Shown here: in pieces, positions 3,128 to 42,446 of the stretch
Position numbering within the stretch: position 1 is the stretch's first letter
How the letters are laid out: each line of letters begins with the position of its first letter
Assembly (NCBI GenBank): GCA_021776475.1
Contig: JAJFFV010000005.1
Coordinates: 248,001-312,000 of the forward strand
Source of the DNA: Parvularculaceae bacterium
GTDB lineage: Bacteria > Pseudomonadota > Alphaproteobacteria > Caulobacterales > Parvularculaceae
Length of the DNA: 64,000 nucleotides
Reading direction: 5' to 3'
The notes under the pieces: generated by a model
Told to the model about the DNA's origin: nothing
Seen by the model: the letters and a program-made list of their open reading frames with translations, nothing else
The model's database searches: none
Translations under genes and position numbers: made by a program

Positions 3128-3448
3128 ATGAAACAATCATCAGATGACTGGGTCAGGGCGGGCAAATACAAGATCAAACTGAATCAGAATGACAAAAGCA
3201 GTATGGGCCTTTCCTCGCGGGAGTCCCAGATTCTGGGTTTGTTGGTACGGGGGTACAGCCTCAAACGCATTGCGCATGATATGGACATTTCTCCGCATAC
3301 AGCCGATACCTACAAGCGCCGCTTATATGGCAAGCTGGGTGTATCCTCGGCTGCCTGTGCCATTGTAATTGCGGTCGCCCACTATACGGGTGCCCTGATT
3401 GAATCAGTCGACACGGAAAATCGCGTAACGACAACCGGAAACGCCTAG
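3128..3448 (+). CDS. HTH-only LuxR/NarL-type regulator, paralogue of the 1130 gene
   Basis: I use ATG 3128 (106 residues, MKQSSDDWVRAGKYKIKLNQ) because the paralogue at 1130 begins at the equivalent point; the track start 3062 adds an unrelated leader. The HTH core SRESQILGLLVRGYSLKRIAHDMDISPHTADTYKRRLYGKLGVSSAACAIVIAVAHYTGA closely matches the 1130 protein, including the hydrophobic end. There is no sensor domain. The pair brackets the DUF488/TetR/SPW cluster, suggesting a local duplication. Unlike the 1130 gene, I see no GTAAC palindrome upstream. Confidence 0.8.
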   Translation: MKQSSDDWVRAGKYKIKLNQNDKSSMGLSSRESQILGLLVRGYSLKRIAHDMDISPHTADTYKRRLYGKLGVSSAACAIVIAVAHYTGALIESVDTENRVTTTGNA

Positions 3449-3542
3449 ATCTGTCCACGGTGGTGGCAACATAGCTGAGCCCAGATGACGGCCATCACCA
3501 GTCAGTATGGGCAATTTCCGGCACTTGGCGGAACAGGACGAG

Positions 3543-4139
3543 CTAGATTACGCCTTCCATCTCGTCGGACAGACGCTTGCCTTCCAGCATCACCCATGAC
3601 GCAAGCCAGACCGCGCCGCCGGTGATCATAATCAGCAGATCAGATAAGCTGACACCAACAACCCAGATCGCGCCGTCGGCACTGTCATGGGTCATCAGGG
3701 GGGGCATCGCCATAAGCATTACGGTCTTCAACACGCCGAAAAAGAAGATGGCTCGGCCGAAACGTGTCAGCAAATCAATCGTCTGTGTGGTGAAGAACTC
3801 ACCCATCTGAAAAAGAGAGAATAGTTTTCGAAGCTGGAACAGACCATAACTCGCCACTAGCGTAACAATCAACACCATAGCACCGCCGATGATGCGTTTG
3901 AACGGGGTCAGGTTGAATTCGATGCTGCCAAGACGAATTAGGAAAGCAATTTCTTCCTGGTCGCCGAACAGCAAGCGCAGGCAGGTCAGCGGCACTAGAA
4001 TGGCAAGAACTACTGCGACCCATTTGAGGATGCGCGAGCGCCGCTTGATACGCTGCAAATTGGCGTCCTGTGTGACAGGTGACATGTCCTTGTTTCCTGG
4101 ATAGACTTTCGCAGATAGTGTCGACGTCCCGCTCTCCAT
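3543..4139 (-). CDS. DUF2975-like four-helix membrane protein
   Basis: The 198-residue version from ATG 4139 has a GGGAG motif about 10 nt upstream; the track start at 4190 and an internal ATG at about 4085 (MSPVTQ) are alternatives. After a basic cytosolic leader (RIKRRSRILKW) there are four membrane segments. The ending SDLLIMITGGAVWLASWVMLEGKRLSDEMEGVI matches the DUF2975 pattern. Typical DUF2975 genes are followed by a YozG-type HTH gene; I do not see one here. Function unknown. Confidence 0.65.
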   Translation of the reverse strand: MESGTSTLSAKVYPGNKDMSPVTQDANLQRIKRRSRILKWVAVVLAILVPLTCLRLLFGDQEEIAFLIRLGSIEFNLTPFKRIIGGAMVLIVTLVASYGLFQLRKLFSLFQMGEFFTTQTIDLLTRFGRAIFFFGVLKTVMLMAMPPLMTHDSADGAIWVVGVSLSDLLIMITGGAVWLASWVMLEGKRLSDEMEGVI

Positions 4140-7002: not shown

Positions 7003-7179
7003 ATGGAACGCATGGATTACACCAACGGCACCCCATTCTGGGAAGGATCCCGCTCCCTCGACGCGGGCACAGAGGCAAAGCGCGGTGGCCTCTCCAAAAC
7101 CATCAGTATCAGCATTGTCCTCACCGGCATCGCCCTCGTTGCGACACTGATTTACGCCCTGGGCGGGTTAGCCGGTTAG
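7003..7179 (+). CDS. Tail-anchored small membrane protein
   Basis: ATG 7003 is chosen over 6982 because AGGAGA lies 7 nt upstream of it. The 58-residue product has a polar N-terminal half (MERMDYTNGTPFWEGSRSL) and one C-terminal membrane helix (TISISIVLTGIALVATLIYALGG) that ends almost at the stop. The layout matches the mini-proteins at 7817 and 13618, although the N-terminal motif differs. A perfect CtrA-type box lies upstream, hinting at cell-cycle control. No family is recognised. Confidence 0.6.
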   Translation: MERMDYTNGTPFWEGSRSLDAGTEAKRGGLSKTISISIVLTGIALVATLIYALGGLAG

Positions 7180-7654
7180 TGGCCATAATCAGCAGTCTAC
7201 TGAGTAAATTCAAAGACCAGAACCAAGTGAGGGTTTACGCAGGTATTGAAGACTCAGGAGATGGGTGATTGAAATTGATCCCCAGCAGATCCATTTTTTT
7301 TGCCAAAACCCGGCCCCCTAAAATGGCAATCTGCTTTTTACCAAGCGCGATGCGGGCAATGATCATCAGGAAGAAAAATAAAAGCGCAGGTCGAGGCTCG
7401 CGCACTGCGGCATCGTGAGGATGCTGCTGGGTTTGAGTGCCGTGGTTGGCGCGCTGGCAGGCTGACCCTCACGGGCACCGCGCCCCTCCCGTGCCGGGGC
7501 ACAACAAGCCCCCCCGAGCCCTTGCCCCCGCGCGTCCTGTCTCACCCGCGACCCTGAGACAAGCAGTTCAGATACCGGTGGATGGTTCCACACCGGTATC
7601 GCAAAGAAATTCCAGGCCATTAAATTACAGAAAAACAATGACTTATAAAAAATC
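7180..7654. other. Gene-free stretch with a 10-bp-arm hairpin
   Basis: I see no convincing gene here. The 118-residue minus-strand ORF (7366-7722) is compositionally odd and runs through the promoter of the next gene. GATACCGGTG-gatggttcca-CACCGGTATC (7571-7600) is a perfect inverted repeat with 10-bp arms, about 55 bp before the operator of the 7817 gene. The middle is rich in C-tracts. Confidence 0.4.
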
Positions 7655-7722
7655 GTGAGTGAATGCTCACTATTTTGTTGACGCCGGCAAAAAGCGCCCC
7701 TAAGGTCTGAGCAAGCGCTCAC
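7655..7722 (+). promoter_or_regulatory. Promoter with twin TGAG...CTCA operators
   Basis: GTGAGTGAATGCTCAC (7655-7670) lies before a -35 TTGACG (7678-7683). After a 17-bp spacer comes a -10 TAAGGT (7701-7706), and CTGAGCAAGCGCTCAC (7707-7722) lies directly after it. The same order, spacing and sequence recur upstream of the related gene at 13618. Two sites bracketing a promoter suggest tight repression by a TetR-like dimer. The regulator is not identified in the window. Confidence 0.65.
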
Positions 7723-7816
7723 TTACACGAACTTCAGGGAAACTGAGGTGGCAAGGGAGAGCCACCGGAAGCTGGTGTGACGTGTGCGCGAGCAGTTTAA
7801 AAAGGCAGAAAGACCG

Positions 7817-7978
7817 ATGACACACAATTCATTTTTACAATCAGGCCTTTACAGCCAGATGAATGGAGGCGCGTTCCGCGAGGAAAAACCCAGCAATCCT
7901 GCGGCCGTTGGCGTGACCGGGTTGCTCGTCTTGATCACGTTGATAGCGCTCGGTAATCTGATCATTTCCGCCATTTGA
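7817..7978 (+). CDS. Mini membrane protein with MTxNxF...GLxxQ motif
   Basis: ATG 7817 gives 53 residues; the longer GTG start (7784) is not matched in the paralogue. The N-terminus MTHNSFLQSGLYSQM aligns with MTYNKFSNGGLFNQI of the 13618 gene. A C-terminal helix (VGVTGLLVLITLIALGNLIISAI) reaches the stop, so the protein is probably tail-anchored with a cytosolic N-terminus. A rho-independent terminator follows at 8101, making it a single-gene unit under the twin operators at 7655-7722. Function unknown. Confidence 0.7.
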   Translation: MTHNSFLQSGLYSQMNGGAFREEKPSNPAAVGVTGLLVLITLIALGNLIISAI

Positions 7979-27932: not shown

Positions 27933-29243
27933 TCAACCGCGCCCGCGCGCTTCATCTGCAAGTTTGCGCAAGGCCCCGGCTTCGCCTTCCAGATCGTCAA
28001 AAGCAAACGGATTAAGGAATTGCCGCCCCCAATGCAGATTGCGATCCACTTTGGAAAGTGCCACCTCTTTACAAACCTGATCCCAATGCTCGGCGATAAT
28101 ACGGATTTGATGCGCGGCAATCTCGGTCGCTTCTTCTTCGGACAAAAGAAAATGATGCGCAGCGCTTATACACGCGCTGATGCGGCTCATATTGTTGTCA
28201 CCGCTGATATTCATCGCCTGACTTGCTTCTTGCCCGGCGCGCCCTTGCGGGCAAATGTCATAAGCCGGCGCAAGGGTGAGCGTTTCTCCATCCCAAAACG
28301 CGGCATGATTGCGCGCATGATCGTCCGTATTGCCGCTCAGAATGTTAAAGGTGAGCCGGCCATAAAGCTCACGCAGCGTATCCTTGGGATCGGTAAAACG
28401 GTGCCGGATTATTTCAGCCAAATCCTGATAGCTCGCATAGCGCGCCATCATTTCATCAAGCGATAAAATGGTCAGGGCCGAGACCATCAGCTTTCGTTTC
28501 CATCCGGTGTTGGCGCGCTGACGGTCGAAGCGCTCGATTAAGAGCACGTGTTTTCCGGATGCGTTTGTGACAGAAACTTCAGCCACATTCAGCCCGGCTA
28601 GCTTGGCAAGACGCATGGCGATGAACTCAGCCTTTACGACACTATAGAGGTCATTAGAGGCTGAAAACTTGGCCACAAATTTTGCATCGCCGTCCTCAAT
28701 CATTGCTTTGGGGCGCGCGCCGCCGATTGAACTGCCGTGATGTAAGGCCTGTGCCAGCTCGGGGGTTAGAGGAATGCCTTTTTCAACGCGCTCGGCAGCC
28801 TGGATGAGCTCTTCCAAACTCGCGTTTTTAGGTGAGCGGGCAACGTAGTCGGTCGGTGAGAGCTGAAAATCGAGCGCGCCAATCCGGTCCGATCCGGACT
28901 CCAATAAGAAGGCGAGTTCAGAGAGTTCGATTTCGTCAAGCCTCGCGCCTTTAACGCCGAATTTGCGATTGAGAATAACCCGCCGCCCCCATGCGTCAGG
29001 TGCAGCGTCGCGAATGCTGCTTGGCATCGTTAACCCGCCGGGTAATGGCAATTCCCCCGCACGAAGCGGCAGCTCTGGCAAATAGATCGGAATGGCGTCA
29101 TTGCGCTCCAGATAGGATTTGCCGTAATTAAAGATCAGGGTTAGAGGGCTGCCTATCGCGTGCAAACGGCCGGCGACGACCGGTTCGGTTTTGCCTGGCA
29201 ACCAAATCCAGACAAAGGCTTCATCGTATGTATTAGAACTCAT
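27933..29243 (-). CDS. hipA: HipA-like serine/threonine kinase toxin
   Basis: ATG 29243 (MSSNTYDEAFVWIWLPGKTEP) gives 436 residues and overlaps the antitoxin stop by 11 nt. It has the HipA N-terminal subdomain (LRAGELPLPGGLTMPSSIRDAAPDAWGRRVI), the ATP-loop region SSIGGARPKAMI, and the catalytic and metal motifs in NILSGNTDDHARNHAAFW and LAPAYDICP. HipA kinases phosphorylate aminoacyl-tRNA synthetases such as GltX and arrest growth. The target here is unproven. The downstream end is at the edge of the accessory region. Confidence 0.9.
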   Translation of the reverse strand: MSSNTYDEAFVWIWLPGKTEPVVAGRLHAIGSPLTLIFNYGKSYLERNDAIPIYLPELPLRAGELPLPGGLTMPSSIRDAAPDAWGRRVILNRKFGVKGARLDEIELSELAFLLESGSDRIGALDFQLSPTDYVARSPKNASLEELIQAAERVEKGIPLTPELAQALHHGSSIGGARPKAMIEDGDAKFVAKFSASNDLYSVVKAEFIAMRLAKLAGLNVAEVSVTNASGKHVLLIERFDRQRANTGWKRKLMVSALTILSLDEMMARYASYQDLAEIIRHRFTDPKDTLRELYGRLTFNILSGNTDDHARNHAAFWDGETLTLAPAYDICPQGRAGQEASQAMNISGDNNMSRISACISAAHHFLLSEEEATEIAAHQIRIIAEHWDQVCKEVALSKVDRNLHWGRQFLNPFAFDDLEGEAGALRKLADEARGRG

Positions 29244-29571
29244 CGCGCAGGCCCTTTGATGATTTGTGGATATGCTTTGGCAGGAGCGCGATTTTATCTT
29301 CAGCGCGAGCAATTTGCTTTGTCAGGCGCCGATCGTCAGCATCAAATAAATTGACCCCTACAATCGTTGCAGCTTCAAAGACGAGACCAATCTCGACCTT
29401 AGGGTCACCTTTTTCAATTCGCTGGAGTGTGCCGCGTGAAATGCCTGTGCGTTCGGCCAGTTCCTCAGAGGTGAGCTTTCGCTCTTTGCGGCCAAGGCGG
29501 ATCAGTCTGCCAAGCAGCAAAGCAGCTTCGTGTGAGTACTTTGAGTATGTGCGCTTTTGAATTCGAGGCAT
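29233..29571 (-). CDS. hipB: HipB-like XRE-family antitoxin
   Basis: I prefer ATG 29571 (112 residues, MPRIQKRTYSKYSHEAALLLG) because the track start 29622 lies inside the palindromic operator. An XRE helix-turn-helix covers residues about 25-75 (RKERKLTSEELAERTGISRGTLQRIEKGDPKVEIGLVFEAA). By family it neutralises HipA and represses the operon through upstream operators; the 47-bp palindrome at 29585-29631 is the obvious site. Confidence 0.85.
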   Translation of the reverse strand: MPRIQKRTYSKYSHEAALLLGRLIRLGRKERKLTSEELAERTGISRGTLQRIEKGDPKVEIGLVFEAATIVGVNLFDADDRRLTKQIARAEDKIALLPKHIHKSSKGLRDEF

Positions 29572-29584
29572 TTCAAGCTCAATT

Positions 29585-29631
29585 GGTCCATGTATGGCCC
29601 ATACTTTATCAATATGAGCCATACATAAACC
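29585..29631. promoter_or_regulatory. Large palindromic operator of hipBA
   Basis: Two 19-bp arms, GGTCCATGTATGGCCCATA and TATGAGCCATACATAAACC, match in 16 of 19 positions around a 9-bp spacer. Each arm contains two ATGG/CCAT-type half sites, so two dimers could bind. The element lies immediately upstream of the preferred hipB start. Confidence 0.6.
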
Positions 29632-30737: not shown

Positions 30738-31289
30738 TTATACACTACATGAGTTCAACTTGAAGAGCTTTAGAGGCAGGTCATCCAACAATTTGCAGGT
30801 AGACTTCAAACCGCTGAACAGTTGAATACCGAGGAGTAACTCCTCCCTTCCCCAAAACTTTTTGAGTGGCATTTCAGATCGAACTGAGTTTGGCGTCTGG
30901 AAGTGAAGTTCAGAAAGTGTGTCGGTCAGCCGGTGTGATCTTGATTGATGATCATCTTCACCAACCACATCACTCGTCAGCCTCAGAGGCTCGCTGATGC
31001 GGGTTCTCTCTTTTCTCAAAGCACTCTCTCGGTAAATATCCGCAACGCCCTCCTGAGGTGCGTGAAACGGTTCTATTTCAATGAACATGACAGTGTTGAA
31101 TCGATGGTCAGGAAACTCCTCCAAGATCACATATGACATTGACTTACCGACTTCGGTACTGAGGACAGTGTAGGTGTCAGATGTATTCAGGTATCTCTTG
31201 GCGTGGGTTAAATCTGAATCATATCCATTGGCTCCGTTAAACTGAACCCGTTGTCCTTTTGGCGCGTTTAAACGCATTGAGTCAGACAT
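30738..31289 (-). CDS. Conserved small-domain protein with unusual C-terminal tail
   Basis: ATG 31289 follows AGGAG and gives 183 residues. The first 75 (MSDSMRLNAPKGQRVQFNGANGYDSDLTHAKRYLNTSDTYTVLSTEVGKSMSYVILEEFPDHRFNTVMF) resemble short proteins of about 70 residues that I recall from alphaproteobacterial accessory regions. The remaining part has no recognisable fold and may be a readthrough extension after loss of the normal stop. Function unknown. Confidence 0.5.
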   Translation of the reverse strand: MSDSMRLNAPKGQRVQFNGANGYDSDLTHAKRYLNTSDTYTVLSTEVGKSMSYVILEEFPDHRFNTVMFIEIEPFHAPQEGVADIYRESALRKERTRISEPLRLTSDVVGEDDHQSRSHRLTDTLSELHFQTPNSVRSEMPLKKFWGREELLLGIQLFSGLKSTCKLLDDLPLKLFKLNSCSV

Positions 31290-31682
31290 AGAATACTCCT
31301 TCATGGTAAGTGGTTGGAAGCGGCGGACGTGTTGCTGCACCGCCAGCTAAAGATTCTGCATTGAAGTCTGGTTACAGTGTTGGAAGGCTACTTGGAGCCA
31401 ACAACCGATATGATTTGCTCAAACACTGGATGAAATTATTGCACGATTGAGATGGCTACCTCCTTGATTGGTATTTAACCCTCATCGTTTGAACCACCTT
31501 GTAGGAGTACAGGTTGGTAAGGGACTAAACCCTTTCTTGATGATCGGTACACTGTAACAGAAATGACTGAAATGTCAAGATACAAGGGCCTGAACCACCG
31601 TTTACGCGTCTGCTTTTCGTGGAGGACGCCATTTCCAGTTCTTCATCTGTGTGATAATGTTCAACTCATTGGGGGTTGGGAC
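31290..31682. other. AT-rich gap upstream of the membrane hydrolase
   Basis: There is no gene. The track extends the next ORF back to 31563, but that leader has no family likeness or ribosome site. It holds divergent promoters that I cannot pinpoint. Confidence 0.3.
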
Positions 31683-33173
31683 ATGACCACAATCATTACA
31701 GTTCATGGCACTAACGCTGGTGACGAAAGCGACACTGGTGAACAATGGTGGCAACAAAAGTCTGAGTTTCAGGAAAAGCTGAGTGAGTATGTTGAAGCAC
31801 CGGATGGTCGTCTGGAGTTTAAGCCTTTTCATTGGGGTGTCGGGCCGAATAGTGAATTGAAACGACGTGATGCTGGCAATGATCTTCGTCGGGAAATGCT
31901 GGCACTGGAGAAGGAAGAAGTGCCTTACTCAGTGATTGGCCATAGTCATGGTGGGTCTGTCCTGAACCATGCGCTGTTTTCTGTCTACGCTAAGAAACTC
32001 AGCCTGCCCAATATGAAGTCATGGGTGACGGTGGGGACGCCGTTTATAGAAACACGACGCAGCGGGTTTTTTCTGACCCGTTTTAATTTATTGGGACAAA
32101 TAGGATTAGCAATTGCGCTAGTTCAGATTTTGAGTCTTATCTCACAGCCGTTAGTTGACTATTATGTTGCGGGTAATTTCGAGGCGTGGGATTCAACAAG
32201 TTTGGGAGCATCTCTTTTACTCCTAGCGGCAGTGTTTATAATCGCATCGGCATTTACAGCAAGGGCTCGAAAACGCCAAGATTCAATTCATCAAAGACAA
32301 TTTGCGGATAAATTCGAATCCAGATTGTCGTCATTTAGACATTCCAACGATGAAGCAATTGAAGGATTAAAAAATGTGAAATCTCTACGAGCCAACATCC
32401 TAAAAGCATACCCAATAGCACGCGGATTGTCAGCTTTCATTGCAATTCTTCTGACTTTTATATGGGCAGTATACAATGTTTTTTTCAGCATAGCAGATGC
32501 AAACCTGCTGATTGGCAATATTGAATCAATACAGGAAATGTGCGGCGGAAATGAGGTGTGTATCGCAATTGATAGTGGAATCTCAGCAATTGAACCCCTT
32601 GTTTACTTTGCCGTTAATGATTTCACTCCTTCCTACTTATATATTTCTTTTGTTTATCCATTATCATTGATTTTACTGATATTTTTAGTGTACGGAGTTT
32701 CGTTGTTCTGCCTGACGGCTTTGCTCATTCCAGTCGTTGCAATCTTAAATCTGGCTTTGTCATCACAAGTACGCTCAATATCTGTTGGTGGAGATGCATT
32801 TGGGGAGAGATTGAATATCATCCGTTCCCAGCCCAACAGTGATTATTCAGATCATAGTCAATTACCGCATCAATTAGCCCAAGAAATCGAAGACTACACC
32901 GAGCAATACGCCATCGATGCTATCCGTAAAATAAGAGCTCTCATCGGTTCCAACATTGCCTCGTCCGATAACCCAATAACGGACCAAATCAGCGACACGC
33001 TCTCATGGAAAGAACTCATTCACACCGCCTATTTCGATGTCGATAACTTCATCAAGCTCGTTGCTGTTTCGTTATGCGAGAGTGGTCTTGTTACCCCGAG
33101 TCGAAAGCTGAAAAGTGATCCAGAGTATGACAAGGTGGTTGGGTGGTATCAGGAGATGAAACCGGAAGCCTAG
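31683..33173 (+). CDS. Membrane-bound alpha/beta hydrolase-like protein
   Basis: ATG 31683 begins MTTIITVHGTNAGDESDTGEQWW (496 residues). The first 130 residues form an alpha/beta hydrolase core: oxyanion-type HGTN, a nucleophile elbow GHSHGGS near residue 85, and WVTVGTPF. Four or five membrane helices follow (LLGQIGLAIALVQILSLI; LGASLLLLAAVFIIASAF; GLSAFIAILLTFIWAVYNVFF; YISFVYPLSLILLIFLVYGVSLF), with a cytosolic C-terminal helical domain. It is probably a lipase or esterase acting at the inner membrane. Similar genes are common in accessory regions, where a defence role is possible but unproven. Confidence 0.7.
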   Translation: MTTIITVHGTNAGDESDTGEQWWQQKSEFQEKLSEYVEAPDGRLEFKPFHWGVGPNSELKRRDAGNDLRREMLALEKEEVPYSVIGHSHGGSVLNHALFSVYAKKLSLPNMKSWVTVGTPFIETRRSGFFLTRFNLLGQIGLAIALVQILSLISQPLVDYYVAGNFEAWDSTSLGASLLLLAAVFIIASAFTARARKRQDSIHQRQFADKFESRLSSFRHSNDEAIEGLKNVKSLRANILKAYPIARGLSAFIAILLTFIWAVYNVFFSIADANLLIGNIESIQEMCGGNEVCIAIDSGISAIEPLVYFAVNDFTPSYLYISFVYPLSLILLIFLVYGVSLFCLTALLIPVVAILNLALSSQVRSISVGGDAFGERLNIIRSQPNSDYSDHSQLPHQLAQEIEDYTEQYAIDAIRKIRALIGSNIASSDNPITDQISDTLSWKELIHTAYFDVDNFIKLVAVSLCESGLVTPSRKLKSDPEYDKVVGWYQEMKPEA

Positions 33174-33301
33174 TCCAGCCAAAGCGCCTCAGTTTTTTGA
33201 AGGCTCTGTCGAATTGTCGAGGCTTGACTCACAACACATCATAGCGTTGAAATACTAAATCGAGCGGGCAGCTGGGCAAAACTCAACTTGAGGTAAAACC
33301 C

Positions 33302-33496
33302 ATGAAAGATGACCTGCCCGTGACTCTCACTGAATACGATACCCATGGAAACATCTATCAGGTGCTGGCAAGAACAACTCTGCCAACGTATGGCACCGCC
33401 GTGTTTGAGGAAGCTGTCAGATTGATTCCGCACAGGCATTATGTGCTTTACAACAAGGCCCATGTGTTGCGGAAACACAATGTGGATAAGGTTTGA
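33302..33496 (+). CDS. Small hypothetical protein upstream of the SRAP remnant
   Basis: The 64-residue ORF has a GAGGT site before ATG 33302 and ends 3 bp before the truncated SRAP gene. The sequence (MKDDLPVTLTEYDTHGNIYQVLARTTLP) has balanced composition and no membrane helix. Position suggests an operon with the SRAP gene. No family named. Confidence 0.5.
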   Translation: MKDDLPVTLTEYDTHGNIYQVLARTTLPTYGTAVFEEAVRLIPHRHYVLYNKAHVLRKHNVDKV

Positions 33497-33499
33497 AAG

Positions 33500-33848: not shown

Positions 33849-33895
33849 TGACGTGAGCCCCAATTGGTCCCTCATTTGAATGGAGAGTCCGTCAA
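33849..33895 (+). repeat. 47-bp inverted repeat, left copy
   Basis: The sequence from TGACGTGAGCCCCAATTGG to GAGAGTCCGTCAA is repeated exactly in reverse complement at 42270-42316. The TGA...tip faces outward on both sides, as in insertion-sequence or transposon ends. No transposase gene lies between the copies. Confidence 0.85.
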
Positions 33896-36278: not shown

Positions 36279-36393
36279 CCGATTTTGAGCCTAGATAGCA
36301 CCTATTAAATAGTTACCCACACACGCGCAAGTAATTATCCTTTTAAATGCTCTCAGAAGCTCAAAGGAAGCGATATACGCTTTTCCAAGCCCC
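36279..36393 (+). repeat. Diverged direct repeat, copy 1 (before the cyclase gene)
   Basis: The block starting at TTTTGAGCCTAGATAGCACC and running through TTTTAAATGCTCTCAGAAG and GCGATATACGCTTTT is matched, at roughly 80 percent by eye, at 39603-39719 in the same orientation. The two copies flank the cyclase gene. AAGCG-atata-CGCTT in this copy is a small hairpin. Confidence 0.75.
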
Positions 36394-36524: not shown

Positions 36525-39500
36525 GTGACTGAATTCGCCGGTTACCGATTTACGATTGGTTCAAAACTGCTGCATCTTGCACAAGATACAGCAGCGATAG
36601 GCATTCTGGTTTTATTCACCATTTTGATCGCTCCGTTTTATCTGAGCACGTCAGTCGAAGATGATGTGTACGTCGAAAACGGCGAAATTGACTTGTCCGA
36701 TACAAACTTAAGTGTTCCGGTTTCTTTGAAGGGAAACTGGCGCTTTCATTGGGAACAATATGTTGACGAAATTCATGGAGACACTGTTTCTTCTGTAGCG
36801 GTTCCCGGCTTTTGGAGTGATTCACCAGAAGCATTCCATGCGAAGGGGTACGCAACATACGGATTAACAATCAGAGGACTAAAGCCCGGTAGCTACGAAT
36901 TTTATATTCCAATGATCTATGCCGCTAGTTCGGTTTGGATGGATGGAACACGGCGAACAATGAACGGCGAACTTGGGACAAATTCTGCATCGACCAAAAC
37001 TACTTGGCTCGATCATTCTATTCCATTCACTTCAAATGGTGAGGAGCATGAATTCTTAATTGAAGTGGCCGCATTTCATCACAGATCGAGTGGCATAGAG
37101 TTAGTGCCCATCATAGGAACGCAGCGAGCAGTTGAGGCAGCTAAACAGCTATTCAATTCCAAGGATATGTACTTCCAAGCCGCTCTTTCGATCTTGGCTC
37201 TTTACGGGTTTGCAATTTTTGTGTTTCGGATTACAGACCGATCATCGTTACACTTTGGATTATTTTGCGCCGCTCTCTCCGTAAGCTCGTTGGTTTTTGG
37301 TGTAAATTTTTGGGAGTTCGTAAAACCCGGAATAGAATTCAACTGGTTGTTGTTCATTCTCTACGTGCCGACAACATTTTCGATGATATTTTTTCTAAAC
37401 TACGTCGAGCTTCTCTATAAAGGAGAATCCTTTCGTAGGATTGGGCTAATTTGCAAGTTACTGTTTATCGGATTTGGGATTTCATATACGATTCTACTAC
37501 TCGGTAATAATTCCTATACGGCATCTACGCTATTTCCGTATTTTACGATATTGATGATCGCCTATTTCTTTCTGATTTTCGCTATCGTTTTTCGAGCAGC
37601 TTGGCGAGGCAAAGAAGGTGCCCGCATTTTCCTGTTCGGTTTTGGGATAATGATTTTCACCATATCGAGCGAGGTTATAGTTCAAGCCAATATCCTCCCT
37701 GAGGAGAATGCACCATTACACGGCTTGGGGGCCTTAGGATTTATGGCTTTTCTGGTTGCCCAAGTAATGATCCTTGCAGTCAGGTGGTCTAGAACCCTTA
37801 GTCGATCGGAGAGAATGGCAAATGATCTTGGCCGATTGATCGATATGTCCTCAGCCGTTGTATCGGACGATGAATTGCCGAACCTACTAAATCGAATTAT
37901 CGTTTCTTGCCGACAGTTTCTCAGTGCTGAGCGCGGTACTTTGTTTTTATTTGACGCCGAAACTAATGAGCTCTGGTCTCTCGTAGCCGAAGGAGTAACA
38001 TTTAGTGAAATAAGAATTCCTTCTGATGAAGGACTAGCTGGTGCATGCTTTCAAAGTGGTGAAATCATTCGGGTCAAAAACGCTTACAAAGACGAACGAT
38101 TTTTGGGCCGAGTTGATGACGCGACTGGATTTAGAACGAAATCAATCATGTCGGTACCAGTGGAAACAAAGACAGGTACTAGGATTGGCGTCATACAGGT
38201 TCTCAATAAGATCGGAGAGTCTGCGTTTGGCGATGAGGATGAACAACGGATTACGGCATTTGCGTCACAAGCAGCGATTTCTTTAGAGAACGCCGAATTG
38301 TTTGGGGAAGTCACATGGGCCCGCAAATATAACGAAAGCATCCTTTCATCGATGTCAAATGGTGTTATTTCGATCAACAAGAATAACGTCATTGAAAAGG
38401 TAAACCCGGCCGCTGTCAAAATCTGGGGAGGAGAAGAGAAGCAATATATAGGTCAGGATGCTGTTGCTCAATTGAGAATCGATAATTCTTGGTTGGCAGA
38501 CGAACTATTGTCTACATCAATTGACGGTCAGGCTCGTAACTTTGTTGATGTTGATGTTTTGACTTTTAACTCAACCAAGCAATCGATGAACATTTCTATT
38601 GTCCCGCTCTCTAACGAAGAGAGTGATATGGGCCTGCTAATCATGTTGGAGGATATCACCGAAGAAAAACGTCTGAAAGGAACGATGTCACGATTCATGA
38701 CTAAAGAGGTTGCTGATAAGATCATTGAACAAGGCGACGACGCATTATCTGGTGTAACCGTAAACGCCAGCATCTTATTTGTTGATTTACGAGATTTTAC
38801 AACGCTTTCTGAACAGCTTGGGCCGCAGGAAACAGTGTCTATGTTGAATGAGTTTTTCGGCTATATGACAGAAGCTGTTTTTAGTTCGCTTGGAGTATTG
38901 GATAAGTTCATTGGCGATTCGATAATGGCAGTGTTTGGCGCACCTATTGAAAGTGACCATGATGCAGACAATGCGATCGCTTGTTCTATTGAGATGATGA
39001 ATTCTGTTTTGGAATTGAACCGGGTTCGCGAAGCTCGTAATGATCCACCGATAAGAATTAGCATTGGCATTGCAACTGGGGCAGTCGTTGCAGGTACGAT
39101 CGGATCAACAAAACGTATGGAGTACACAGTTGTTGGCGATAGCGTTAATCTCGCCTCAAGGTTGGAAAACTTAACTCGGTACTACAGTGCGGATGTTGTC
39201 TTTGGTGATGATACATACCTAGCATTAGAAAACCCTCCTAAAGCCCGTGAATTAGACCTAATCAGAGTCAAGGGTCGAACGGCTCCATCTGTGATCTACG
39301 AATTACTCGAACATCACACAGAACAGACGTTTCCAAACGGTGAAAAGTTACTTGGGTACTACGCAGATGGCCTAGACCACTATCGTAACAGAGAATGGAA
39401 AAAGGCAATAAATTCGTTTAGCTCTGCACTACGCTTGAATCCAAATGATCGCCCCTCTGAAATCTACAAGAACCGGTCTAGTGTATTCTTGCATAACCCG

Positions 39501-39554
39501 CCTCCTGAAGAGTGGGACGGTGTCTGGACAATGTCACAAAAAACTGAAGGATAA
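36525..39554 (+). CDS. Receptor-type class III nucleotide cyclase (7TM-GAF-PAS-cyclase)
   Basis: The 1009-residue protein starts at GTG 36525 after GGGGGA. In order it has a membrane helix, an extracytoplasmic beta domain of 7TMR-DISM type (KGNWRFHWEQYVD, PGSYEFYIPMIYAASSVWMDG), seven membrane helices (about 215-430), a GAF domain (about 450-600) and a PAS-like domain (about 610-715). The class III cyclase domain (about 745-930) has metal aspartates in ILFVDLRDFT and KFIGDSIMAVFG, and EYTVVGDSVNLASR. The Lys and Thr at purine-specifying positions fit a class IIIb adenylate cyclase. A TPR-like tail ends it. It is AT-rich and bracketed by direct repeats. Confidence 0.9.
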   Translation: MTEFAGYRFTIGSKLLHLAQDTAAIGILVLFTILIAPFYLSTSVEDDVYVENGEIDLSDTNLSVPVSLKGNWRFHWEQYVDEIHGDTVSSVAVPGFWSDSPEAFHAKGYATYGLTIRGLKPGSYEFYIPMIYAASSVWMDGTRRTMNGELGTNSASTKTTWLDHSIPFTSNGEEHEFLIEVAAFHHRSSGIELVPIIGTQRAVEAAKQLFNSKDMYFQAALSILALYGFAIFVFRITDRSSLHFGLFCAALSVSSLVFGVNFWEFVKPGIEFNWLLFILYVPTTFSMIFFLNYVELLYKGESFRRIGLICKLLFIGFGISYTILLLGNNSYTASTLFPYFTILMIAYFFLIFAIVFRAAWRGKEGARIFLFGFGIMIFTISSEVIVQANILPEENAPLHGLGALGFMAFLVAQVMILAVRWSRTLSRSERMANDLGRLIDMSSAVVSDDELPNLLNRIIVSCRQFLSAERGTLFLFDAETNELWSLVAEGVTFSEIRIPSDEGLAGACFQSGEIIRVKNAYKDERFLGRVDDATGFRTKSIMSVPVETKTGTRIGVIQVLNKIGESAFGDEDEQRITAFASQAAISLENAELFGEVTWARKYNESILSSMSNGVISINKNNVIEKVNPAAVKIWGGEEKQYIGQDAVAQLRIDNSWLADELLSTSIDGQARNFVDVDVLTFNSTKQSMNISIVPLSNEESDMGLLIMLEDITEEKRLKGTMSRFMTKEVADKIIEQGDDALSGVTVNASILFVDLRDFTTLSEQLGPQETVSMLNEFFGYMTEAVFSSLGVLDKFIGDSIMAVFGAPIESDHDADNAIACSIEMMNSVLELNRVREARNDPPIRISIGIATGAVVAGTIGSTKRMEYTVVGDSVNLASRLENLTRYYSADVVFGDDTYLALENPPKARELDLIRVKGRTAPSVIYELLEHHTEQTFPNGEKLLGYYADGLDHYRNREWKKAINSFSSALRLNPNDRPSEIYKNRSSVFLHNPPPEEWDGVWTMSQKTEG

Positions 39555-39602: not shown

Positions 39603-39719
39603 CTTATTTTGAGCTTAGATAACACCTATTCAATATTTACCGACACACTTTCAAGTAAATACCCTGTTAAATGCTCTCAGGAACTCACAGAGAGCGATAT
39701 ACACTTTTTCTAAGCCACC
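39603..39719 (+). repeat. Diverged direct repeat, copy 2 (after the cyclase gene)
   Basis: The block starting at TTTTGAGCTTAGATAACACC and running through GTTAAATGCTCTCAGGAAC and GCGATATACACTTTT matches copy 1 at 36279-36393 along its whole length, with scattered substitutions and one or two indels. Confidence 0.75.
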
Positions 39720-39839: not shown

Positions 39840-40511
39840 TCAACCATGCATCTTTTCAATACTTAGCTGCCTCTTACTAAAACAACCCAGATCAATCCAT
39901 TTGGCTTGCAGCATCTCATTAAAATGGACTTCTTTGGTGATCGTATGGCCATGGTAAGAGAGATCAACACCTCCTGCTCGTTCATATTCATCAGAGAAGA
40001 TTTTGTTCCTGCCCCACAAGAGTTCCGGGGCCTCTGAGATTATGATTTGCTCCGTCCATTCAGACGGTGGTTGGGCATGTGAGATGCCAATCCTTGTTCC
40101 ATCTGCCTTTTCAACAATGACGGCGACAGGCAAGTCAGCAACAACTTCTGCTAATGACTTTACTTCAGCCAGTTCCAGATCATCGAGATTAAAAAACCAA
40201 TTACCACCATTGGAGCGCCACCGCTCTTCAGCATCCATGGTTGGATTATCTAGATAGTCCAGCATGAGCTGTTCATGGTTTCCCATGACACAACAAAACC
40301 ATGGCTCTTGGAGCAATCTCAGACACCCAAGAGAGTCTGGACCCCTATCGATTAAATCACCAACACTGAAGAGACGATCTATCTCTGGATTGAACTTTTG
40401 TTGGGCCAACGCTTTTTCCAAGGCAGGATAGCAACCATGCAGATCACCTACTACAAAATCACTACCCAGATCATTCGGCGGAGTGGTTTTCAATACTTGC
40501 CCACCTAACAT
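39840..40511 (-). CDS. PP1-type metallophosphatase (PrpA/PrpB-like)
   Basis: ATG 40511 (223 residues) starts MLGGQVLKTTPPNDLG. The phosphoesterase metal motifs are complete: VVGDLHGCY, SVGDLIDRGPDS, VMGNHEQLML, and later HAQPPSE and YHGHT. The length fits bacterial PrpA-like and lambda-phosphatase-like serine/threonine phosphatases that also cleave small phosphoesters. It is the last gene of a five-gene operon whose other members are unknown, so its substrate is probably tied to that membrane module. Confidence 0.88.
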   Translation of the reverse strand: MLGGQVLKTTPPNDLGSDFVVGDLHGCYPALEKALAQQKFNPEIDRLFSVGDLIDRGPDSLGCLRLLQEPWFCCVMGNHEQLMLDYLDNPTMDAEERWRSNGGNWFFNLDDLELAEVKSLAEVVADLPVAVIVEKADGTRIGISHAQPPSEWTEQIIISEAPELLWGRNKIFSDEYERAGGVDLSYHGHTITKEVHFNEMLQAKWIDLGCFSKRQLSIEKMHG

Positions 40512-40867
40512 ACACAAACCAGCCCTTCGTTCTCGCTAGTCTGATATGGATAGGCAGTTTCCAGTTCCTGATCTGTGGCACCAGATTGTCTGGCAATTAC
40601 GCGCATCTCTTCATTTAACTCAACCAGCTTATTTTCCATCTCATAGAGCTTACTCAATGCCGCCAGTGATGCTCTTTTGGTAGAATGAACGTACTCTTTG
40701 CCTTTGTGATAACTCACATCATCTATGGCCTCTCTGACCTCTTTTATTTCACATTTCAGCTTGTTGATGCGCGACCTTTGAGTTGAGATTCTCGCTCCCG
40801 CGATGAACGAGGTGATCAAAACCCCAAATAGGATTGAAGCTGAGATGAGAATGATGAGTTCTGTCAT
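40505..40867 (-). CDS. Membrane-anchored coiled-coil protein, phosphatase module
   Basis: The 120-residue protein has one N-terminal membrane helix (LIILISASILFGVLITSFIAGA) and a long charged helix predicted to be a coiled coil (RSRINKLKCEIKEVREAIDDVS...YEMENKLVELNEEMRVIA). It overlaps the upstream gene by 4 nt (ATGA) and the phosphatase start by 7 nt. It is probably a scaffold that places the phosphatase at the membrane (inference). Confidence 0.65.
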   Translation of the reverse strand: MTELIILISASILFGVLITSFIAGARISTQRSRINKLKCEIKEVREAIDDVSYHKGKEYVHSTKRASLAALSKLYEMENKLVELNEEMRVIARQSGATDQELETAYPYQTSENEGLVCVC

Positions 40868-41259
40868 AAAGGTTCCTTGTATATTGGGTTGTGGTTGCCG
40901 CGAGCGATGATTTCTTCGTAAGTCCCATATGGGCCTAGTGGTGCGGTGATGTGGATGAAGTCGAGCTTACCAAAGCGTTCGACGAGGTGCTGTTCCACCT
41001 TTTCAAATTCGTGGTCGAGGCAAAACTTCTCGATCTCAAGCTTTAATGATGGTTCTAACTTTGAATATGTTATGCCCAATTCTGAATTGAAGTAGAATAA
41101 GACAGATGGCACATCCTTCATAAGCACCTCAGGAGACCTGTCGTCGGCTATACTCTCTCCTTCCAAAGCAAGACCGCCATGGACAAGTTTGCCCGTATGA
41201 GGACAATAAATCGGATTAAGATTCTCGTCTTGGTCTAGTTTTATCCTCGTGATGGTCAT
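40864..41259 (-). CDS. Unknown soluble protein, phosphatase module
   Basis: The 131-residue protein (MTITRIKLDQDENLNPIYCPHTGKLVHG) has no membrane helix or signal peptide. A CPHTG stretch near residue 20 and a Glu-rich middle are visible. The stop-start overlap with its downstream neighbour and direct abutment upstream put it within the operon. It has no recognised family. Confidence 0.65.
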   Translation of the reverse strand: MTITRIKLDQDENLNPIYCPHTGKLVHGGLALEGESIADDRSPEVLMKDVPSVLFYFNSELGITYSKLEPSLKLEIEKFCLDHEFEKVEQHLVERFGKLDFIHITAPLGPYGTYEEIIARGNHNPIYKEPL

Positions 41260-41466
41260 TTATCGCCCTCCCAGCCCGAATACAAACATCATAAGTAAGC
41301 CGAGGTTGAGGGTGAGTGAACCCAACACCAGTCCAACCAGTATAACTTTGGTTGCAGGACTAAAATTAATGAATCTGGTGATTCCATTCGTCCGTGCATA
41401 GATTTGGGTACGATGCGCGAACCAATGCTTGATAGGATGGCCGGATTTATGTTTTCGCATACTCAA
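41260..41466 (-). CDS. Small single-pass membrane protein, phosphatase module
   Basis: The 68-residue protein has a basic N-terminal half (MRKHKSGHPIKHWFAHRTQIYARTNGITRFINF) and a C-terminal helix (VILVGLVLGSLTLNLGLLMMFVFG). It overlaps the upstream gene by 4 nt and its stop abuts the next ATG. No family recognised. Confidence 0.6.
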   Translation of the reverse strand: MSMRKHKSGHPIKHWFAHRTQIYARTNGITRFINFSPATKVILVGLVLGSLTLNLGLLMMFVFGLGGR

Positions 41467-41843
41467 CTATCCTCTCTTGAAGGCCATAAATAACTGGTGT
41501 CCATAATGAATTTCTCCGCATCCATTTCCACCCAGTTTTGTAGGAACAACCCAAACGGCAGTATAATGATGAGGAATAGAATTGGTGGAAACAAATACCC
41601 GACAATGATCAAGATAATGGCAATCGGAATGCTCTGAAGCATTGAAGCGATTAAGATCATGACAGCTATGAAGACTGTTTTTATGGGGATCATGATCAGA
41701 TAGATGATGACCAAGAAGGCATGTTTCAGCAATAGATAGGGCAGCTTCAACAACCACATTTCAACCACCCTTATAATAGGGCCGATTTGTCCTGAAAGCA
41801 GGTCTATGATTTGGATTTGCAGCAGATTTCCACTGCTCAACAT
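41463..41843 (-). CDS. Hydrophobic membrane protein, first gene of phosphatase module
   Basis: ATG 41843 is used since the track start 41873 is a TTG; the product is 126 residues. Three or four long hydrophobic stretches dominate (LLLKHAFLVIIYLIMIPIKTVFIAVMILIASML; IPIAIILIIVGYLFPPILFLIIILPFGLFL), with a polar end. The gene opens a run of five genes with 4-7 nt overlaps. No family recognised. Confidence 0.6.
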   Translation of the reverse strand: MLSSGNLLQIQIIDLLSGQIGPIIRVVEMWLLKLPYLLLKHAFLVIIYLIMIPIKTVFIAVMILIASMLQSIPIAIILIIVGYLFPPILFLIIILPFGLFLQNWVEMDAEKFIMDTSYLWPSREDS

Positions 41844-42269
41844 GCACGATGACTTGTTTGGATTGAATGACAATAGAAAAAGATATCCTCCTATTTTTAG
41901 CTCTTGGCTCTCATCATTTTGCCACCTTCGCTAGAGTTTGCAGGTTGGCCAGTCACTAAAGACTGTCGTGATGATGTAATATTAGTATCACATGTAACTT
42001 GAAATGTCAATAGTATACTGATGAATCGAGAGTCCAACGGTAAGGTTCGGGCTGAATGCATCGATCAAAACTGGTTCCTGTCGCTCGACAAGTGCCCGGT
42101 CACAATGTGAGGCGTTCAGGCAAGATAAGATGAAGTAAGACCGCACAGCTCGATTGGTAACAAACCGCCAATCACGCTCATAAACAACGAAGGTGAAAAC
42201 AGCCCACCTCCGTGAAAAACCGGAAAACTCTACAATCCGGTGACGGTAAGTTGGGGGCAGGTTCACCTG
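41844..42269. other. Gap upstream of the phosphatase module
   Basis: The promoter of the five-gene operon must lie here. The ORF 41988-42266 has no ribosome site or family and ends inside sequence abutting the inverted repeat, so I do not call it. Composition is mixed, changing from AT-rich to GC-richer near 42050. Confidence 0.35.
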
Positions 42270-42316
42270 TTGACGGACTCTCCATTCAAATGAGGGACCA
42301 ATTGGGGCTCACGTCA
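42270..42316 (-). repeat. 47-bp inverted repeat, right copy
   Basis: Exact reverse complement of 33849-33895, with its TGACGTGAGCC tip facing right. It ends 53 bp before the 3' end of the tRNA-Arg gene. Confidence 0.85.
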
Positions 42317-42369: not shown

Positions 42370-42446
42370 TGGCGCACCCGACAGGATTCGAACCTGTGAC
42401 CTCTGCCTTCGGAGGGCAGCGCTCTATCCAACTGAGCTACGGGTGC
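42370..42446 (-). tRNA. tRNA-Arg (anticodon CCG)
   Basis: The minus strand reads GCACCCGTAGCTCAGTTGGA at the 5' end. The anticodon arm is CTGCC-CTCCGAA-GGCAG, the T-arm GGTTCGAATCC, the acceptor CGGGTGC, a G discriminator and an encoded CCA. Loop bases 34-36 are CCG. The 3' end faces the accessory region, the usual side for integration of islands. I found no second copy of the 3' segment as an attachment repeat. Confidence 0.96.

Follow-up and report, generated by a model that had tools for sequence, protein, structure and literature searches.

What condition switches on a run of five tightly packed genes, of which only the last encodes a protein of a recognisable family, and what these genes do together, are the questions raised by the minus strand between positions 41873 and 39840 of the window, the whole 64,000-nucleotide stretch of Parvularculaceae DNA that was analysed.

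Organization of the operon

Five open reading frames are tiled over this segment without intergenic space. The overlapping five-gene module that was originally predicted at 39840-41843 is present in full, with its junctions as described:

41463..41873 (from TTG, 136 aa) or 41463..41843 (from ATG, 126 aa), minus strand: gene 1, hydrophobic, predicted membrane protein
41260..41466, minus strand: gene 2, 68 aa, basic N-terminus and one predicted transmembrane segment
40864..41259, minus strand: gene 3, 131 aa, predicted soluble protein with a CPHTG motif and no transmembrane segment
40505..40867, minus strand: gene 4, 120 aa, predicted N-terminal transmembrane segment followed by a coiled coil
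39840..40511 (from ATG, 223 aa) or 39840..40517 (from TTG, 225 aa), minus strand: gene 5, predicted PPP phosphatase of the lambda NinI/PrpA type

Genes 1 and 2 overlap by 4 nt (TTGA), or lie 2 nt apart should the inner ATG be the start codon; genes 2 and 3 abut exactly, genes 3 and 4 overlap by 4 nt (ATGA), and genes 4 and 5 by 7 nt (ATGTTAG). When judged by the island's own codon usage, the in-frame codon score is positive for all five genes and exceeds that of each of the other five frames, and purine-rich ribosome-binding sites are found 5' of the operon genes. The arrangement was compared with 2000 dinucleotide-model shuffles, in which same-strand open reading frames of at least 60 aa were chained when joined within 10 nt. 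While the four upstream genes form the longest observed chain, of four frames, the shuffles reached a maximum of three (in 6 of 2000), and none of the 2000 contained a chain of four. Co-expression of the five genes as an operon is likely.

From its sequence context, gene 1 probably starts at TTG 41873, which lies below an AGGAGG, in preference to ATG 41843, and the module would therefore begin at or above 41873. The operon leader extends to about 41979, and a candidate promoter was read by eye just above it:

41982..42010, minus strand: putative promoter, TTGACA (42010-42005), 17 nt, TACTAA (41987-41982)

This element is absent from the list returned by a consensus scan, whose pattern requires the second hexamer to end in T.

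A SAM-I/IV riboswitch in the operon leader

The strongest clue to the control of the operon, which the original prediction missed, is a SAM-I/IV riboswitch directly upstream of it. A second copy lies 10 kb away, within the same low-GC, tRNA-Arg-linked region:

41883..41979, minus strand: SAM-I/IV aptamer (RF01725) of the operon leader, Rfam cmscan 55.9 bits (gathering threshold 41.1), full-length match to model positions 1-99 of 99
41888..41893, minus strand: Shine-Dalgarno sequence AGGAGG at the 3' end of the operon aptamer, read from the sequence
31454..31548, minus strand: second SAM-I/IV riboswitch, 64.7 bits (gathering threshold 41.1), 5' of gene 30738-31340

The operon aptamer ends 10 nt before the earliest codon at which gene 1 could start. 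Comparison of the two copies shows that all 13 of 13 base pairs in P1, P2 and the 3' hairpin are kept, with five double compensatory changes, all of which fall in P2 and the 3' hairpin; in a control in which the pairing partner was slid along the sequence, at most one double change arose. RF01725 is the SAM-I-IV-variant of Weinberg et al. 2010 (PMC2864571), and both copies share with it the same helices, a full-length model match and a Shine-Dalgarno sequence at the 3' edge of the aptamer. In PMC6890682, SAM riboswitches are presented as controlling sulfur metabolism, yet the operon copy differs in preceding a phosphatase and membrane protein operon that contains no recognisable sulfur-metabolism gene.

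The P3 loop is complementary to the AGGAG of the Shine-Dalgarno sequence through CUCU in the operon copy and CUCCU in the second copy, with duplex energies of -4.6 kcal/mol for the former and -7.2 kcal/mol for the CUCCU/AGGAG pair. This complementarity, which would form a pseudoknot between the P3 loop and the 3' tail, is seen in two sequences only, too few for covariation. The spacing from the Shine-Dalgarno sequence to the TTG of gene 1 is 13 nt, longer than ideal, and a local hairpin can alternatively cover the same Shine-Dalgarno sequence. By eye, a TTGACA element is found just above each of the two aptamers. Behind the second copy, no open reading frame starts directly after the Shine-Dalgarno sequence, and the gene at 30738-31340 is of unknown function; this copy may be decayed, or may serve a long leader.

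The two copies were combined into a search model, which at its own sensitivity revealed no third copy in 2.8 Mb of genome sequence and the window, together about 84% of the genome, and a regular-expression search of the same pieces returned the island copies only. The presence of two copies in the island and none elsewhere in the searched genome suggests that the switch was acquired with the island cargo. Plasmid and phage searches with the riboswitch leaders gave no match. SAM-I/IV aptamers were found on two viral contigs, however, at L363:1712-1805 and L362:7429-7526. In L363, the aptamer (60 bits) is followed by AAGGAG and, 7 nt later, by the ATG of an unknown 66-aa phage gene. This is the same layout of aptamer, Shine-Dalgarno sequence and start codon as is proposed for the operon. 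The control step, a SAM riboswitch before the operon, is well supported; that it binds SAM, and the direction in which it would act, we infer from the sequence.

Gene 5 is predicted to encode a NinI/PrpA-type protein phosphatase

Gene 5 had been described as a PP1-type phosphatase. A PPP phosphatase is indeed recognisable, but both profile and structure matches place it with the lambda NinI/PrpA type and not with PP1. It matches NinI (phrog_246) at 4.7e-59 in PHROGs and PrpA (PRK11439) at 3.7e-39 in NCBIfam, the latter with a score of 135 bits that lies below the 326-bit equivalog cut-off, whereas its match to ApaH is weaker, at only 2.5e-12. The closest solved relative is the lambda phosphatase, 1g5b (4.6e-30), and identity to lambda NinI is 36%. 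PrpA of E. coli has been classed as a Ser/Thr/Tyr phosphatase of the PPP family (PMC6213207). From its family membership, the product of gene 5 is probably a NinI/PrpA-type enzyme that acts on proteins, with Ser/Thr(/Tyr) specificity.

The PPP signature motifs GDxHG, GDxxDRG and GNHE are present, as are the distal metal-ligand histidines. Residues D25, H27, D54, N80, H81, H147, R170 and H191 are invariant relative to lambda NinI and its relatives, leaving the metal ligands and the general-acid histidine intact. At one position Met replaces Arg, giving VMGNHE where the lambda phosphatase has VRGNHE; the Arg of the latter motif is phosphate-binding, and other members of the family vary at this position too.

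Compared with lambda NinI, PrpA/PrpB and the P1 Ppp enzyme, gene 5 has the same fold family and size, but it sits on a deep, long branch. In a tree of 72 rows it groups with a phosphatase from the viral contig L015 (41% identity, clade support 96/86), although the terminal branch to L015 is long (1.2). The L015 gene is located in a phage early-gene cluster, and NinI relatives are present in 364 phage records. Gene 5 may plausibly have come from a phage. The position of gene 5 as the last gene in an operon of orphan membrane proteins further sets it apart from the NinI/PrpA family, since that arrangement is absent from 180 phosphatase loci.

Genes 1 to 4 and the search for relatives

That only the phosphatase is recognisable among the five proteins proved correct: genes 1-4 have no match above the curated cutoff in Pfam, PHROGs, PADLOC or NCBIfam. 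Membrane segments are predicted in genes 1, 2 and 4, and none in gene 3. A single-sequence AF2 model of gene 1 is a two-helix hairpin (pLDDT 82, pTM 0.53), a generic helical fold for which no match was found in the PDB, while the corresponding model of gene 3 was unusable (pLDDT 44). Gene 4 matches LapA_dom (PF06305) at 23.1 bits, below the Pfam cutoff of 28. Like LapA, it combines a short transmembrane region with a coiled coil; however, LapA has two transmembrane segments, gene 4 has one, and no LapB partner was seen. A holin/spanin reading of genes 1 and 4 was rejected, given that the only matches, to gene 4, are at E 0.02-0.05 and that no endolysin was seen.

For gene 3, four overlapping genome samples (62 from the family, 398 from the order, 385 from the class and 339 from the phylum) yielded no relatives, and neither did the plasmids, phages, and viral and genome contigs tried. 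Genes 1 and 4 had no relatives in 62 and 289 genomes, nor in plasmids, phages or viral contigs, and gene 2 had none in viral contigs. None of the four was found beside the 180 NinI/PrpA-type phosphatase loci (1.85 Mb). As a control on the search itself, the flanking YbjN-like gene was recovered in all six genomes examined from the genus, and distant phosphatases in 54 of 62 family genomes.

By its own terms, the original prediction would fail if the four upstream genes did not travel with the phosphatase in other genomes. As worded, the result is the refuting one, in that genes 1-4 do not accompany a phosphatase elsewhere; yet because all four are orphans in the collections searched, that refutation is uninformative, and it indicates that the module is lineage-specific, not that the operon is unreal. 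For the same reason, co-occurrence cannot test whether the proteins form a complex. The tight coupling of the genes, three predicted membrane proteins and one phosphatase are all consistent with the membrane-phosphatase complex that had been suggested, and the complex itself is a proposal drawn from them.

A variable island at tRNA-Arg

From about 27.7 to 42.3 kb, GC content is 0.42-0.48 apart from one kilobase at 0.54, while most of the flanks lie at 0.52-0.57. One edge of the region is marked by a tRNA gene:

42370..42446, minus strand: tRNA-Arg(CCG), at the edge of the variable region; five congeners keep the junction with different cargo

The NSUN/YbjN-like/tRNA-Arg flank is kept in these five congeners, and the adjoining content differs. 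One carries a type I restriction system at the site, and another a recombinase-like open reading frame, IS-type transposases and other genes. Because the region varies between congeners, the operon is accessory, and it sits on a strain-specific genomic island. A tRNA attachment repeat was sought; the 14-nt match at 32665 was not convincing. Among the open reading frames of the island, none is conspicuous as an integrase, capsid, lysis or replication gene.

The same low-GC island holds a HipA kinase and a HipB-like HTH protein (27933-29622, minus strand). HipA is a Ser/Thr kinase, and it is a possible counterpart of the phosphatase.

Proposed mechanism and alternative explanations

The best explanation of the locus, with a probability of roughly 60%, is an accessory operon under S-adenosylmethionine control that would make a membrane-associated phosphatase. 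Transcription would start just above the SAM-I/IV aptamer. At high SAM, the aptamer would close and its P3 loop would pair with the AGGAG of the Shine-Dalgarno sequence, blocking translation of gene 1; such complementarity is the expected route by which SAM would keep ribosomes from binding. The operon would be silent when SAM is plentiful and expressed when it is scarce. Since the switch would act translationally on gene 1 and the genes overlap, control could spread to all five, with the overlaps and abutments carrying the block by translational coupling. When SAM or methionine is low, the five proteins would be made together. The products of genes 1, 2 and 4 may then serve as membrane anchors, gene 4 extending a coiled coil after its transmembrane segment, and that of gene 3 as a soluble adaptor, such that the gene 5 enzyme, held at the membrane, would dephosphorylate at least one protein while SAM is limiting. 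The operon would be cargo of the low-GC variable region at tRNA-Arg(CCG), with four of its five genes lineage-specific.

Each half of this arrangement, the SAM-I/IV riboswitch and the NinI/PrpA phosphatase, is of a kind already known. The combination of SAM riboswitch, phosphatase and membrane operon was not found in a full-text literature search, which is weak evidence of absence. The more specific proposal of a SAM-gated cassette, in which a drop in SAM leads a mobile-region riboswitch to induce a membrane-tethered lambda-type phosphatase along with members of four protein families not seen before, is put forward tentatively and is less likely than not. If true, it would couple protein dephosphorylation to one-carbon status or to phage attack on SAM, with SAM levels gating the reaction at the membrane. 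The riboswitch in any event gives an otherwise uninterpretable orphan module a known inducing condition.

The phosphatase and its small partners could instead be phage-derived cargo, the leftovers of an old prophage or satellite that are kept, or are decaying, without a joint function. This is unlikely, but the plausible phage-borne origin of gene 5 keeps it alive: phages carry both NinI-type phosphatases and SAM-I/IV leaders, as the 364 records and two viral contigs attest, and the nearest row of the tree is the early-gene phosphatase of L015. The spanin and holin matches of gene 4, which would also fit, are at chance level. However, the long end branch to L015 and the lack of any prominent integrase, capsid, lysis or replication gene among the island's frames speak against this reading, as do five open frames with coding bias and ribosome-binding sites. 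A still less probable reading is that of an anti-phage module, in which infection lowers SAM, for example through phage SAM-degrading enzymes, and thereby opens the riboswitch, so that a phosphatase complex acting at the membrane halts growth. SAM-off control, the HipA/HipB pair on the same island and the restriction system of a congener at the variable tRNA-Arg site would all suit this function, yet none of the five proteins has a PADLOC match, no relatives were found in defence islands, and there is no positive sign of toxicity or protection.

The neighbouring cyclase had been taken as suggestive of a signal-nucleotide function, and a circuit in which the phosphatase complex opposes or processes the cyclase product has two observations in its favour: the cyclase gene (36525-39554, plus strand) ends 286 nt from the phosphatase gene, which ends at 39840 on the minus strand, and its catalytic domain matches PycC profiles in PADLOC. 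This link is not supported. The two genes are convergent and so are not co-transcribed, which places the cyclase outside the operon; the protein itself is of a large, sensory 7TMR-DISM/GAF/PAS class III type, not of Pycsar size; and relatives of its catalytic end at 65-66% DNA-level identity elsewhere in the same genome show its independence from the module. The PycC matches reflect a shared, generic cyclase domain. Although a class III cyclase domain adjoins the operon as in Pycsar, membership of that system was rejected on the convergent orientation and on the lack of any PycTM or PycTIR effector match for the five proteins in PADLOC. NinI-type enzymes are, moreover, protein phosphatases. 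A cyclic-nucleotide circuit is the least probable of these readings.

Repeated sequences in the island

A perfect 47-nt inverted repeat (33849-33895 and 42270-42316, 8.4 kb apart) encloses a D-glutamate-cyclase-like gene, a LysE-type exporter, the cyclase and the five-gene operon, and has no other copy in 2.8 Mb of the genome. When it was considered as a pair of transposon ends, no transposase was seen, and the flanks, ATAAT and TGGGG, show no target duplication. Within it, a 103-nt direct repeat (83%) flanks the cyclase gene at 36282-36384 and 39606-39708, an arrangement that would fit insertion or exchange of this gene as a unit between the copies.

At the tRNA-Arg site of one congener (L126), two identical IS3-type transposase open reading frames lie at 3250-4059 and 7038-7847, and the end of a recombinase-like frame overlaps the tRNA gene. 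Finally, parts of the alpha/beta-hydrolase membrane gene region at 31668-33498 recur at 88% identity at about 713-715 kb of G000 C5 (L247), with shorter pieces in L301, and represent repeated mobile-region DNA.
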